A DNA stretch of 64,000 nucleotides, from positions 689,164-753,163 of the forward strand of contig NZ_KB913033.1 in the NCBI RefSeq assembly GCF_000384235.1, in the 5' to 3' direction. The notes under the pieces are model-generated. The model had not been told where the DNA came from. It did no database searches and saw only the letters and a list, made by a program, of their open reading frames with translations. Source of the stretch: Hydrogenovibrio halophilus DSM 15072 (GTDB taxonomy: Bacteria; Pseudomonadota; Gammaproteobacteria; Thiomicrospirales; Thiomicrospiraceae). Positions 20,827 through 25,080 of this stretch are shown piece after piece. Both the position numbers and the translations under genes were made by a program. Within the stretch, counting starts at the first letter, position 1, and each line of letters opens with the position of its first letter.

Positions 20827-22998
20827 TTAGAAGTCCATTTTGTAACCCACGGTGATGGTACGGGGCATGCCACCACGAACACCGGCCGGACGACGGGCGG
20901 TCATGTATTCTTTGTCGAGCAGGTTATCGACTTTCAGGTAAGCCGCGCCGTCTTTGCTCACATTGTATTGCCCAGTCAGATCAAACACGGTATGGCTGTC
21001 GATTTTCTGGTCGCTCGGGATCGATCCGCTGCCCGCTTGCGTGCGCATTTGATCCATGTATTTGGCGGACAGAAACGCCTGCCAATCGGTTTTGACCATG
21101 CCAGCGCTCAGATACAGTTGATGCGGGGCCAGATACGACATTTTGTCGCCTTTTTCCACATCGCCCCAGAAGCCGTCACTGAAAGATGAACCGAATTCCG
21201 CGTCGGTATAGGTATAGGTGGCCATCAACGGATAGCGTGTCCCGGCCTGTTCCAACACATAGTTGAGACTGGCTTCCAGCCCTTGCACGGCCACTTTACC
21301 GGCATTGTGCTGATCCCCGATGTCGCAACCACTGCCCGTTGCGGCGGTACACTCACCCAGCAAATTGTCGAAATCGTTATAGAAACCGATCACTTCGGCA
21401 CCCAGATTGGCCGCCTGATAACGCGCACCCAGTTCGTAGTTCACGCTGTCTTCCTTGTCGGCCTCATTGTTGCCCGGACTGGCGGGCGCAAAACCTTTAT
21501 GCACCCCACCCAGCAATTGCCACCGGTCGTTCAACTGATAGGTCACGCCCGCACCCGGCACCCAGGCGGTAATGCTGTTTTTCTTGACCGCGTCTTTGCT
21601 GTCACGCCCGGTTCCCGCGTATTCGACCCGTTCGGTATCAATGGTTTCAAAGCGCAAACCGCCCTGGAAACCCCATTGGCCATAGGCCACTTGATCGTGG
21701 ACAAACGCGGAAAAGGCTTTGGCGCTTTCAACCCGGTTGGAATCACTGCCTGGCTCGCCACGGCTGTTCAGTGTCATATCACCATCGGCGCTCATGTTGT
21801 ATTCGTCCACCCACTGGAAGCGGTCCATTTCATCCTGATGATAACGCGCGCCGACGGTCATTTTGTGCTGGGCTTCGCCGGTATTGAAACGCATGCCCAG
21901 AGCGGATTGAACGCCTTCCGAAGTGTAGTCACGGTTATTGGCTTTCACATCCACTGTGCCCGCCTGATCCCCTTTGGTCACAGCCAGTGCCGTGGCATTG
22001 CCTGACGGATCGGACAGAATGTCACCGATGCTCGTCCCATCCACTTTGTCGGTCTTGTACCAGTTACGGTGAAACTGATGGTGATACACGGTGGTATCCA
22101 GTTCCAGCGCATCATTCAATTCAATGTAGTGGTTCACACTGACCGACTTGTGGTCATTGTTCATCACATCTTCCTGCGCCGCCGCATAGCGTCGATAAGG
22201 GTCACGGTCAAAATCGGATTCGGTCAGCCCCAGGTACGACATGTGCGAGGTTTCATCGGCATAACCCAGCTTGATGTTCAATTCCTGATAGCGCTCGGCG
22301 TCCGGCCCCGAATTGATGCGGAACTTGGCCATGAAATCGTTCTTGTCGAAACCGGTGTCGCCACCGCCATCTTGGTCCTTGAACCCGTCGGAACCGTAGC
22401 GCAGACCTTCGATCAGCGCACCGAAGGTTTCGGTCGAAGCCCCATAATGCCCGTGCAGTTTGTAATTCCCAAACTGCCCGCCGCTGACATCGATGCCACC
22501 GGCCTCGCTAAACGGAATCGGACGCGTGATCAGATTGACGGCCCCGGCCAGCGTGCGCGGCCCATATTGCACCATACCCGGCCCCTTGGTCACTTCCACC
22601 GCGTGGATGCGCGGTGCGGAAGGAAAGTAATACGCCGCAGGAGACGCATAAGGCGCAGGCGCGATCAAGACCCCGTCTTCCATCAGGGTGATGTTGCTGC
22701 TTCGACTGACCCCACTGCCGCGAATGCCGATATTGGGCCGCAGGCCAAAGCCTTCCTCTTCCTGAACATTGACGCCCGGCACTTCACGCAGAATCCGGTG
22801 AATATCGGTGTATTCATTCTGTTCCAGTCGTTCGTTGTCCAGGTATTGGACCGACCCGGCTTTGGCCGCCACATCGGCCTGTGAGCCAATGATCGAGATT
22901 TGGTTCAAACGCTCGACTTCTGCTTGAGCGCTCATTGATACCGCCAGCCCGATCAGAGTGGCCAGAGTTTTTTTACGAAAATGACAATGCGTTTTCAT
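20827..22998 (-). CDS. TonB-dependent outer-membrane receptor, FecA-like
   Basis: Imports an iron chelate across the outer membrane using TonB energy. The 723-aa protein has a signal peptide ending at SAQAE (about residue 27), a plug domain (about 40-160; RGSGVSRSSNITLMEDGV, GPGMVQYGPRTLAGAVNLITR) and a 22-strand barrel ending in KMDF. The plug resembles FecA-type receptors; neighbouring hemP and the Fur-type promoter point to iron or haem. The actual siderophore cannot be read. GGAAGCGAT precedes the ATG. Confidence 0.93.
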   Translation of the reverse strand: MKTHCHFRKKTLATLIGLAVSMSAQAEVERLNQISIIGSQADVAAKAGSVQYLDNERLEQNEYTDIHRILREVPGVNVQEEEGFGLRPNIGIRGSGVSRSSNITLMEDGVLIAPAPYASPAAYYFPSAPRIHAVEVTKGPGMVQYGPRTLAGAVNLITRPIPFSEAGGIDVSGGQFGNYKLHGHYGASTETFGALIEGLRYGSDGFKDQDGGGDTGFDKNDFMAKFRINSGPDAERYQELNIKLGYADETSHMSYLGLTESDFDRDPYRRYAAAQEDVMNNDHKSVSVNHYIELNDALELDTTVYHHQFHRNWYKTDKVDGTSIGDILSDPSGNATALAVTKGDQAGTVDVKANNRDYTSEGVQSALGMRFNTGEAQHKMTVGARYHQDEMDRFQWVDEYNMSADGDMTLNSRGEPGSDSNRVESAKAFSAFVHDQVAYGQWGFQGGLRFETIDTERVEYAGTGRDSKDAVKKNSITAWVPGAGVTYQLNDRWQLLGGVHKGFAPASPGNNEADKEDSVNYELGARYQAANLGAEVIGFYNDFDNLLGECTAATGSGCDIGDQHNAGKVAVQGLEASLNYVLEQAGTRYPLMATYTYTDAEFGSSFSDGFWGDVEKGDKMSYLAPHQLYLSAGMVKTDWQAFLSAKYMDQMRTQAGSGSIPSDQKIDSHTVFDLTGQYNVSKDGAAYLKVDNLLDKEYMTARRPAGVRGGMPRTITVGYKMDF

Positions 22999-23086: not shown

Positions 23087-23278
23087 TTACTTGGTTAAAA
23101 TCAGTTTGTTTTCCTTGGTGCGTCTTAGTAGATACTGCTGGTCGCCATGCTGGATAATCACTTTGTCCGCCTCACCCAACAGGGCCCGCGAATCCACCTG
23201 CTTCGGTGCCTGCGCATCCACTCGATCGGACAATGACTCGTTTTCCCGACGACCTGCACCCTCACCATAAGCTTCCAT
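23087..23278 (-). CDS. hemP: hemin uptake protein HemP
   Basis: A 63-aa protein with the family core DSRALLGEADKVIIQHGDQQY and ending LRRTKENKLILTK. HemP proteins are small and accompany Fur-controlled haem/iron receptors; in some bacteria they activate receptor expression. ATG 23278 was chosen because GGGAGG lies 6 nt upstream. It is 88 bp before the TonB receptor gene, so the two form one operon. Confidence 0.88.
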   Translation of the reverse strand: MEAYGEGAGRRENESLSDRVDAQAPKQVDSRALLGEADKVIIQHGDQQYLLRRTKENKLILTK

Positions 23279-23533
23279 AATCGCCTCCCTCAATCTTGAA
23301 CGGCACAATATAGTGAATACAAACGGTGATGTCAATAGTAATAACAATGGTTATCATTGAGATAATGGAATGCCATATCGGTGATGACGGCTGACTGAAA
23401 AAACGAAGAACTCAACACCCAAAGGGGTAAGTCGAGCCACATGCCTTGTGGCATCAGAGGCATGCTAGGTCGGTGTAAATTGGTGACATATTCGGGTCGG
23501 GGATCAAAACAAGGCTGGCACGCCAAAGAAAGC
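23279..23533 (-). other. hemP leader and spacer
   Basis: With the adjoining sRNA region this stretch between hemP and the SppA-like gene exceeds 300 bp without a protein gene. The hemP-proximal end holds the Fur-type promoter; I see nothing further in about 23362-23533. Confidence 0.5.
23307..23361 (-). promoter_or_regulatory. hemP promoter with Fur box
   Basis: On the minus strand -35 TTGACA (23330-23335), 17 bp, and -10 TATATT (23307-23312) form a near-consensus promoter. Just upstream, 23343-23361 matches 13 of 19 positions of the Fur consensus, including ATGATAACCATT (11 of 12 in the core). Iron repression of hemP and the receptor is the likely result. Confidence 0.75.
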
Positions 23534-23568
23534 AAAAAAAAAAACCGACAAGCCTGAGGCCTGTCGGT
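23534..23568 (-). terminator. terminator of the candidate sRNA
   Basis: Stem ACCGACA/TGTCGGT with an inner GCC/GGC pair, followed on the minus strand by 11 Ts. It is one of the strongest intrinsic terminators in the window and no protein gene needs it. Confidence 0.9.
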
Positions 23569-23687
23569 CAAATGTTTACTTAGGAGGATATCGGAACCCA
23601 CGTTCCTGAAGAAAACGACGGAACCGACTGCCATCGAACCCTGGACAGACGCAGAGGATCGATGAAGGTCGGTCAGACCGTGATCTG
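23534..23687 (-). ncRNA. candidate Fur-controlled small RNA
   Basis: A transcript of about 154 nt is predicted from an intact promoter to a strong intrinsic terminator, with no convincing coding frame. It contains an internal hairpin and, between that hairpin and the terminator, an exposed CCUCCU (complement of 23582-23587) able to pair with Shine-Dalgarno sequences. Organisation and control resemble RyhB/PrrF iron-sparing RNAs; no sequence homology is claimed. It would be switched on when iron is scarce. Confidence 0.6.
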
Positions 23688-23693
23688 TGGTTC

Positions 23694-23736
23694 ATTCTAT
23701 TTTACTTGAATACAAATGGCAACCATTACCATTATT
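23694..23736 (-). promoter_or_regulatory. sRNA promoter overlapped by Fur box
   Basis: Minus strand: -35 TTGCCA (23717-23722), 17-bp spacer, -10 TAGAAT (23694-23699). The 19 bp at 23718-23736 match 13 of 19 Fur-box positions and cover the -35, which fits direct repression. Confidence 0.65.
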
Positions 23737-23743
23737 AATTTCA

Positions 23744-24775
23744 CTATGGTGCGTTTTCCGGCCAATAGAGATAATACTGACCGGGCTTGAGCCAACGCTC
23801 ACTCAACTCAGCGCCTGGCAACAACGACAGGGACGGCGCATAAGGCGATTGCATGCCGGGACTGTAGCGGTTGGCATTGGGATTGAGGTCAAACCGATAG
23901 GCCACTGTCTCACAGGCTTTCGCGCCTCCGAGGCGACAGGCCCGTTCCAACGTCTCCGGCAAATAAGCCACAGCATCCACCAGACCGGCGCCCACCGCCT
24001 GCTCGCCCAGATAGATTCGGGCGGTTTTGATCGACTGCATGGCCTGGTCATTCAACTGACGGCGCTCCTGCACCAGCGCGTGAAACCGCGCCGCCATCCG
24101 GTCGATCAAGCTCTGCCAATACACCGCATCTTCCGGCTGATGCGGCCGAAACGGCGATCCCACGTCCTTTTTCTCACCGCTTTTGTAGGTGTGCACTTCC
24201 ACCCCGAGCTTCCGGGTCAGCCCAGTCACATCCGCGGTCAGACTGATCACCCCCACTGAGCCGGTCAAGGTCGTCGGGTGGGCGTAGATTTCCTCCGCGG
24301 CTAGGGCAATGTAATACCCGCCCGAAGCGGCCACATCCATCATCTGCACCACCAGCTTTTTGCCTGTGTTCTGACGGAAACGCTGCAATTCCCGGTACAG
24401 AATGTCACTGGCGGTCACGCCCCCGCCCGGCGAATCAATGCGCAGCACCACCGCCACGATTTCCGGGTCTTCCGCGGCCTTGCGTAACTGCATGGTGACC
24501 CGGTCGATCATCCCCGGACGCTGGCTCAGCAAACCGCTTTCGGGCTCGTTGGCGATCATGCCTTCAATCGAAATCAGCAGGACCTTTTTTTCCGCCCCGT
24601 CTTGCGTTTCCAGCGTCTGCTCCTGCAAAGGATCCCCTGCGCCCGGTCCCAGATGAATGCTGACACAGCCGCTGAACATCAGCGACACCATCAACAACGT
24701 TGTCATTTTTACCAGGCCTGGTAAATTTTGCCTTGCTTGCCTTGACGGCCCGCCCCCATTCAACCTTGAAACCAT
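23744..24775 (-). CDS. SppA-like S49 peptidase, lipoprotein
   Basis: A membrane-associated serine protease that degrades cleaved signal peptides or related substrates. The 343-aa protein has a lipobox LMFSGC (Cys37), the S49 nucleophile Ser151 in AASGGYYIA and the probable general base Lys198 in YKSGEKKDVGSPF. The lipid anchor is unusual, since SppA proteins normally use a membrane helix. ATG 24775 was chosen because GAGGAG lies 6 nt upstream. A palindrome copy at 24711-24722 encodes PGLV near the signal peptide. It is divergent from the EF-hand gene. Confidence 0.88.
   Translation of the reverse strand: MVSRLNGGGPSRQARQNLPGLVKMTTLLMVSLMFSGCVSIHLGPGAGDPLQEQTLETQDGAEKKVLLISIEGMIANEPESGLLSQRPGMIDRVTMQLRKAAEDPEIVAVVLRIDSPGGGVTASDILYRELQRFRQNTGKKLVVQMMDVAASGGYYIALAAEEIYAHPTTLTGSVGVISLTADVTGLTRKLGVEVHTYKSGEKKDVGSPFRPHQPEDAVYWQSLIDRMAARFHALVQERRQLNDQAMQSIKTARIYLGEQAVGAGLVDAVAYLPETLERACRLGGAKACETVAYRFDLNPNANRYSPGMQSPYAPSLSLLPGAELSERWLKPGQYYLYWPENAP
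24711..24722. repeat. palindrome inside the sppA-like gene
   Basis: An exact ACCAGGCCTGGT with T5 on the left and AAATTTT on the right. It is read as PGLV in the leader (NLPGLVKM). Confidence 0.85.
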
Positions 24776-25080
24776 GCGTGTCTCCTCGTTGCGAGTCAAT
24801 TAACTGCGTCCCGTCATTATCCCTTTCTCTGTCTTGCTGCGCCATACGTCTAAGGCTTTTTCTCTTGCCGCCGTTAACCCCAATAGCGCCCGTTTAAAAA
24901 TAAAAACAGCACAAAACAAGAGGCGCACACCGTTGCCAGACCAGAAACGCAATGTGTACTCCCGTCACGCCGGCATTCAAGCCGGACCCGTGACGCATTA
25001 AACAAGGGAAATTGTTTAATTCGGAACCTTCAATCTGACCTCATGTGTCAGACAAAGGTTCCTCACAGGAGTCACTTATT
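24776..25080 (+). promoter_or_regulatory. structured leader of the EF-hand gene
   Basis: This 305-bp gene-free spacer holds four successive hairpins on the + strand. They are an ACAC/GTGT plus GTTGC/GCAAT stem (about 24932-24957), GTCACG-CCGGC/GCCGG-CGTGAC (24964-24994), ATTAAACAA/TTGTTTAAT (24997-25020) and GGAACCTT with inner TCTGAC (25023-25062). The ribosome site AGGAG follows the last stem by a few bases. No T-run follows, so these are not simple terminators. I do not recognise a riboswitch family. Confidence 0.5.

Follow-up and report, generated by a model that had tools for sequence, protein, structure and literature searches.

Results

A candidate small RNA (sRNA) gene lies between sppA and hemP in the 64,000-nt stretch of DNA analysed here, from the sulfur-oxidizing bacterium Hydrogenovibrio halophilus, which we call the window. 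The gene is about 154 nt long and occupies 23534..23687 on the minus strand. Its start was set from the -10 box, hence a tolerance of +/- 2 nt. The upstream neighbour is an sppA-type peptidase gene (23744..24799, minus; TIGR00706, Pfam S49). Downstream lies hemP (23087..23278, minus; PF10636), which has its own promoter (23335-23307) and a Fur-like box at 23342-23356 with 11 of 14 consensus matches. Beyond hemP lies a TonB-dependent receptor gene (20827..22998, minus) that matches PF00593 and PF07715 and scores below the cut-off of TIGR01783. A sequence-only reading of this DNA had placed a set of sRNA elements between sppA and hemP, and all of them were found there, on the minus strand.

The sRNA gene is bounded by a promoter and an intrinsic terminator, both as first proposed. 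The sigma-70-like promoter, TTGCCA-17-TAGAAT, spans 23694..23722 on the minus strand, running from 23722 to 23694, and matches the consensus at 10 of 12 positions. Its segment GTAAAATAGAATG is invariant in Thiomicrospira sp. WB1. The frame of sppA, which is encoded on this strand too, stops 21 nt upstream of the -35 hexamer. The terminator (23534..23569, minus) has 12 pairs between 23569 and 23543 followed by 11 T, and ends the RNA some 154 nt past the promoter. Scanning 1.3 kb on both strands returned four promoter-like sites against 1.0 expected. Terminator-like sites numbered two against 1.5 expected, which is not above chance at the scan's threshold of 5 pairs; the sRNA terminator has 12. 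It is the sole terminator-like site on the minus strand between 23000 and 24300, and so probably serves sppA as well.

The gene is conserved in synteny and in sequence in WB1, which carries the nearest named relative of sppA (75% identity over the best segment); the genome falls within the Thiomicrospira group. WB1 has the sRNA at the identical place in its sppA/hemP interval, with 71% DNA identity over 191 of 207 bases. The promoter agrees between the two, and blocks of 18, 15 and 12 nt are invariant. The longest block, AUAUCCUCCUAAGUAAAC (23574..23591, minus), contains the putative seed AUAUCCUCCUAA at 23580-23591. When alignment columns were shuffled 20,000 times, a run of 18 was reached in 96 shuffles, and the sum of the three longest runs in none.

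Stem changes between the two species preserve pairing. In the terminator, 6 of 11 pairs are altered on both sides in WB1 yet kept, and none is broken. One of the five pairs of a possible second hairpin is compensatory, again with none broken. The first hairpin, folded separately in each species, has quite different stem letters around the same loop, UGCGUCUGUCCA. These stems were counted by hand, as the automatic two-sequence alignment gave a poor first hairpin and a displaced terminator, and the comparison comprises the two available sequences, those of the window and WB1. With a syntenic homologue, covarying stems and an invariant seed, the sRNA gene is very probably real, and the initial proposal of a small RNA with an anti-Shine-Dalgarno seed gains support from the same evidence.

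It is highly improbable that the region holds no regulator and serves only to terminate sppA, or that it encodes a small protein instead. A terminator after sppA is expected, and WB1 has a 23-codon frame running from ATG to a TAA inside the seed. Loops are invariant here while stems covary, and the conservation of 18-, 15- and 12-nt blocks is unlike a plain terminator. Two frames end within both RNAs. The first begins with an ATG in WB1 but has neither that codon nor GTG or TTG in the window; the second reaches its stop in both species without any of these three start codons ahead of it. The sRNA terminator is crossed by a frame of 100 aa (23332-23634, minus) that is not conserved; the aligned WB1 frame lacks that start and stops after ...LLSKP. 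No gene had been seen between sppA and hemP at the outset, and the comparison with WB1, where a conserved protein frame would have told against an sRNA, revealed no frame with a start in both species. Protein coding by the region is thus not supported by sequence. Judged from its promoter, terminator, covarying stems and lack of a conserved started frame, the gene appears to be a stand-alone non-coding gene with an intrinsic terminator.

The RNA is predicted to fold stably, with a seed that is masked or open depending on the fold. The calculated fold energy of the 154-nt transcript is -59.5 kcal/mol, which corresponds to a z of -5.3 and is lower than that of all 200 shuffles; the WB1 RNA likewise folds better than 200 of 200. 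In the first hairpin, the apical loop region is UGCGUCUGUCCA (23642..23653, minus), which is invariant in WB1, where the stem sequence differs. The possible second hairpin, GGAAC-GUGG-GUUCC (23593..23606, minus; AGAAC/GUUCU in WB1), appears in the best fold of WB1 and in the consensus fold, and is absent from the best fold of the window. There GUUUUCUU, a 5' stem side at 23609..23616 (minus) within the invariant 15-nt block UCCGUCGUUUUCUUC, pairs with AAGUAAAC (23581-23574), and AGGA and GGGU mask the seed. Both sides of this GUUUuCUU/AAGuAAAC stem are identical in the two species, so the comparison gives no covariation there.

CCUCCU, at 23587-23582 (minus), had been described as exposed. This holds for the best fold of WB1, which is the seed-open form, but not for the minimum-energy fold of the window, where 6 of 6 bases are paired. 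The alternative fold of the window, in which the second hairpin is present and the seed unpaired, lies at -57.7 kcal/mol, 1.8 kcal/mol higher than the best fold. Opening the 12-nt seed is calculated to cost 1.5 kcal/mol in the window and 0.2 in WB1.

The sRNA is narrowly distributed. A DNA search of 55 genomes (its own and relatives) matched two. A covariance search of relatives, suggested at the outset, turned up the WB1 homologue: across 62 genomes of the order, under Infernal's stricter filters, the model had two matches, its own source sequences. A 15-mer with one mismatch allowed matched 5 of 62 family genomes, at four places besides the two sRNA copies. Three of those four were examined and rejected as homologues, all lying in other contexts. 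A survey downstream of sppA covered seven relatives, six with a readable sppA (G004 was left out), and in these six other same-genus genomes neither the sRNA nor hemP follows sppA. None of the other nine same-genus genomes gave a hemP match at E 0.001. Given this absence after sppA in relatives, the sRNA and hemP cluster looks like a lineage-specific arrangement.

No Rfam family accounts for the gene. Rfam gave no match at gathering score in the 64-kb window. Six weak matches fell in the sRNA region, the best with an E value of 1, and RyhB and PrrF were not among them. A SprX match in WB1 (26.6 bits, E 0.0007, against a gathering score of 80) spans the terminator and runs on into the DNA beyond; we took it as chance.

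A Fur-like box makes iron control of the sRNA plausible. The box, TGGTAATGGTTGCCA (23717..23731, minus), lies partly over the -35 hexamer. It agrees at 10 of 14 positions with TGATAATNATTATCA, which we take to be the Fur box consensus and used as the reference for scoring. In a sample of the same genome, 143 of 463,706 positions have at least 10 matches. This score was reached in 2219 of 20,000 local shuffles. The corresponding box at the WB1 sRNA promoter has 9 matches, which is weak against composition-matched shuffles. We also scored the boxes with a matrix derived from other genomes, where 10 of 12 sequences upstream of hemP contributed a site with at least 10 matches. Shuffles did as well as the sRNA box in 814 of 3000 cases for the window and 1316 of 3000 for WB1; for the boxes of hemP itself the figures were 141 and 474 of 3000. 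Because shuffles so often equal the score in this AT-rich stretch, the Fur-like box alone is not beyond chance. Upstream of the hemP promoter there is a second Fur-like stretch, GATAATGGAATGCCATATC (23361-23379), which agrees at 13 of 19 positions.

Other features of the genome are consistent with iron control. It encodes two FUR-family proteins (PF01475, 142.6 and 38.5 bits), of which the one at 142.6 bits is presumably Fur itself, and it has hfq (PF17209, 100.4 bits). hemP and TonB receptors are gene kinds classically under Fur control. Of the initial description of the RNA as Fur-repressed, the position of the box over the -35 hexamer stands in both species, but its score is matched by local shuffles. 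Fur control of the sRNA is therefore a plausible reading of the box position, of the hemP and TonB-receptor neighbours and of the FUR-family genes present.

The sRNA could be real and yet answer to a regulator other than Fur, be constitutive, or be mainly processed from the 3' end of sppA, though we consider this quite unlikely. Box scores equalled by shuffles fit such a reading, as does the want of any terminator-like site between the sRNA and the sppA frame that ends so close before it on the same strand. Against it stand the promoter conserved directly before the sRNA in both species, with GTAAAATAGAATG invariant, and the neighbouring genes of classically Fur-controlled kinds.

The CCUCCU region, singled out from the start for target prediction, is predicted to pair with the ribosome-binding site of soxX. 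The seed AUAUCCUCCUAA matches UUAGGAGGAUAU of soxX in a perfect 12-bp duplex that ends 3 nt short of the AUG. Searching for the seed complement with two mismatches allowed gave 5 and 11 places (self included), with soxX present in both species. The motif TTAGGAGGA has two sites in its own genome and two in WB1, one opposite the sRNA and one at the soxX ribosome-binding site, against 8 and 6 sites respectively for the reversed-pattern control on both strands. soxX is followed by soxY and soxZ, and SoxX, SoxY and SoxZ are NCBIfam equivalogs above cut-off. SoxX is a cytochrome c and hence a heme protein.

Energy calculations rank soxX first or lower depending on how duplexes are scored. We drew 375 gene starts from 464 kb of the genome, deliberately including the soxX stretch, and ranked them by their unbroken helix with the seed region. 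soxX came first, with 13 pairs and -21.9 kcal/mol; the next gave -16.9. The modelled net energy of sRNA-soxX pairing, with both sides opened, is -13.1 kcal/mol in its own genome and -15.1 in WB1. Gapped duplex scoring of the seed region places soxX second, at -18.7 against -18.9. Gapped scoring of the RNA minus its terminator puts soxX outside the best 15. Full-length duplex scoring was not informative, as it favours long gapped duplexes.

The soxX site is ancestral. We compared 26 readable soxX leaders from 30 loci (L098-L127; G005, G056, G010 and G001 were left out). TTAGGAGGA is present in 14 of the 26, and 13 of these are in genomes without the sRNA, where 25 leaders could be read. A strong soxX ribosome-binding site, TTAGGAGGA or TTTGGAGGA, is found in 24 of the 26 whether or not the sRNA is present. 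Because the site predates the sRNA, the match of soxX to an anti-Shine-Dalgarno stretch could be due to chance. AGGAGG precedes the start at 6 of the 375 sampled gene starts, so there are few sites for such a match. With TTAGGAGGA also rare, strong Shine-Dalgarno sites are few in this genome and a CCUCCU seed is selective here. Among the readable leaders, together with that of WB1, which was read separately, a GGATAT extension is exclusive to the two sRNA-bearing species; in four relatives of the same genus it reads GGATAA. Co-adaptation of the seed and the soxX site would agree with this pattern, which is a small argument for it.

Sites other than soxX offer one possible minor target. In ilvD (L083:13206-15059, minus), AGGAGG stands before the start and pairs over 7 positions, among the best 10 of 375 by helix. 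The ilvD product is an Fe-S enzyme, and the gene is a possible minor target judging by its sequence. At 11 nt, with G-U allowed, the seed has four places besides itself and soxX. None lies before an evident gene start; one, at L161, is 20 nt inside a mechanical 174-codon frame. The apical loop UGCGUCUGUCCA, with at most one mismatch, occurs at 36 places in the two genomes, the two copies in the sRNA included, and the 30 of these 36 that were examined yielded no convincing target. The pairs L148/L157 and L150/L139 looked orthologous between the species as loop targets. They were rejected, as their own-genome copies lie opposite long frames (352 and 547 aa) and hence are not mRNA targets.

The sRNA might instead be an iron-controlled regulator with many or other targets, in which CCUCCU is a general anti-Shine-Dalgarno element for several iron-protein mRNAs and soxX is merely the strongest sequence match. 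The C-rich seeds of FsrA and IsrR act in this way (PMC9410917); the ilvD site agrees with it, and the invariant 5' loop implies further contacts. The invariant block, however, exceeds CCUCCU, extending over 18 nt, of which soxX uses the most among the sites found (12-13 nt), and few sampled starts offer an AGGAGG to pair with. We regard this reading as unlikely.

Discussion

We favour, as the probable reading, a stand-alone, iron-controlled, base-pairing sRNA that resembles RyhB, PrrF, FsrA and IsrR and blocks soxX translation in iron shortage. When iron is ample, Fur bound to the box over the -35 hexamer would silence the sRNA. When iron is scarce, hemP, the TonB receptor and the sRNA would be expressed at the same time. 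The predicted parts of the RNA are a first hairpin whose loop is conserved, a middle that can adopt two folds, the seed AUAUCCUCCUAA and a terminator whose long U tail suits Hfq. The seed would pair over 12-13 bp with the soxX ribosome-binding site UUUAGGAGGAUAUAGAAUG, which has the start codon at its end. Such pairing would block soxX translation and lower the amount of heme-bearing SoxX, perhaps of SoxYZ too. Sulfur oxidation would then be throttled and heme iron spared.

A more specific form of this proposal is possible, and we advance it tentatively. The sRNA would have been born in a small lineage alongside the hemP/TonB-receptor cluster as a dedicated iron switch on chemolithotrophic energy metabolism. 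Its main job would be to shut off soxX, its seed having evolved to fit a pre-existing strong ribosome-binding site.

The RNA is predicted to work in a manner akin to known iron-sparing sRNAs and appears to form a new, unnamed family within that kind, with soxX as its testable prediction. RyhB and PrrF, from enteric bacteria and Pseudomonas, are iron-sparing sRNAs that Fur represses and that depend on Hfq (PMC9410917). The sRNA has in common with them a Fur-like box over the promoter, an intrinsic terminator with a U tail, hfq in the genome and a predicted repression of an iron protein (PMC9410917). It differs in lacking an Rfam gathering-score match and in its predicted target, soxX. The comparison with RyhB/PrrF organisation drawn at first sight thus holds for the manner of working but not for family membership, since no Rfam match reaches the gathering score.

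FsrA of Bacillus and IsrR of Staphylococcus offer a closer parallel for the seed. Both direct a C-rich stretch against the Shine-Dalgarno sequences of iron-protein mRNAs (PMC9410917). A C-rich anti-Shine-Dalgarno seed of this type is present here, as CCUCCU within the invariant 18-nt block. Unlike FsrA, which needs the FbpABC chaperones, the sRNA occurs in a genome with hfq, and unlike IsrR, which has three C-rich regions, it has one seed (same source). FsrA and IsrR also belong to another phylum, and no Rfam match links them to the sRNA in a comparison made through the whole Rfam library, which may not hold both. The same paper, on IsrR, states that RyhB, PrrF and FsrA are no orthologues of IsrR, with which they have no synteny or sequence homology in common, and that iron-sparing sRNAs arose independently in several groups (PMC9410917).

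By its predicted target, the sRNA recalls IsaR1 of cyanobacteria. IsaR1 is an iron-starvation sRNA that lowers the main energy-gaining electron transport, in that case photosynthesis (reviewed in PMC6202907). IsaR1 is 68 nt long, has more than 15 direct targets and is conserved in cyanobacteria (PMC6202907), whereas the sRNA here is about 154 nt long, occurs in two species and is predicted to act on sulfur oxidation. Another sRNA that responds to iron is RusT of Caulobacter, whose targets are outer-membrane transporters (abstract of PMC11005374). In the titles and abstract openings of the open-access matches listed, we found no sRNA acting on sulfur oxidation and no Fur-controlled sRNA in this group of autotrophs. 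The main text of a Hydrogenovibrio paper (PMC11439405) does not contain the word sRNA.

Iron shortage may turn down energy metabolism in the bacteria that carry this sRNA, as the match of the seed to the soxX site suggests. If so, iron supply would directly set the rate of energy gain from sulfur, much as IsaR1 ties iron to photosynthesis. The pair would also exemplify how a young sRNA is fitted to a ribosome-binding site that existed before it. In the fold model, positions 23574-23616 (minus) of the window hold two competing structures separated by 1.8 kcal/mol, one masking the seed and one leaving it open, which could constitute a built-in switch.
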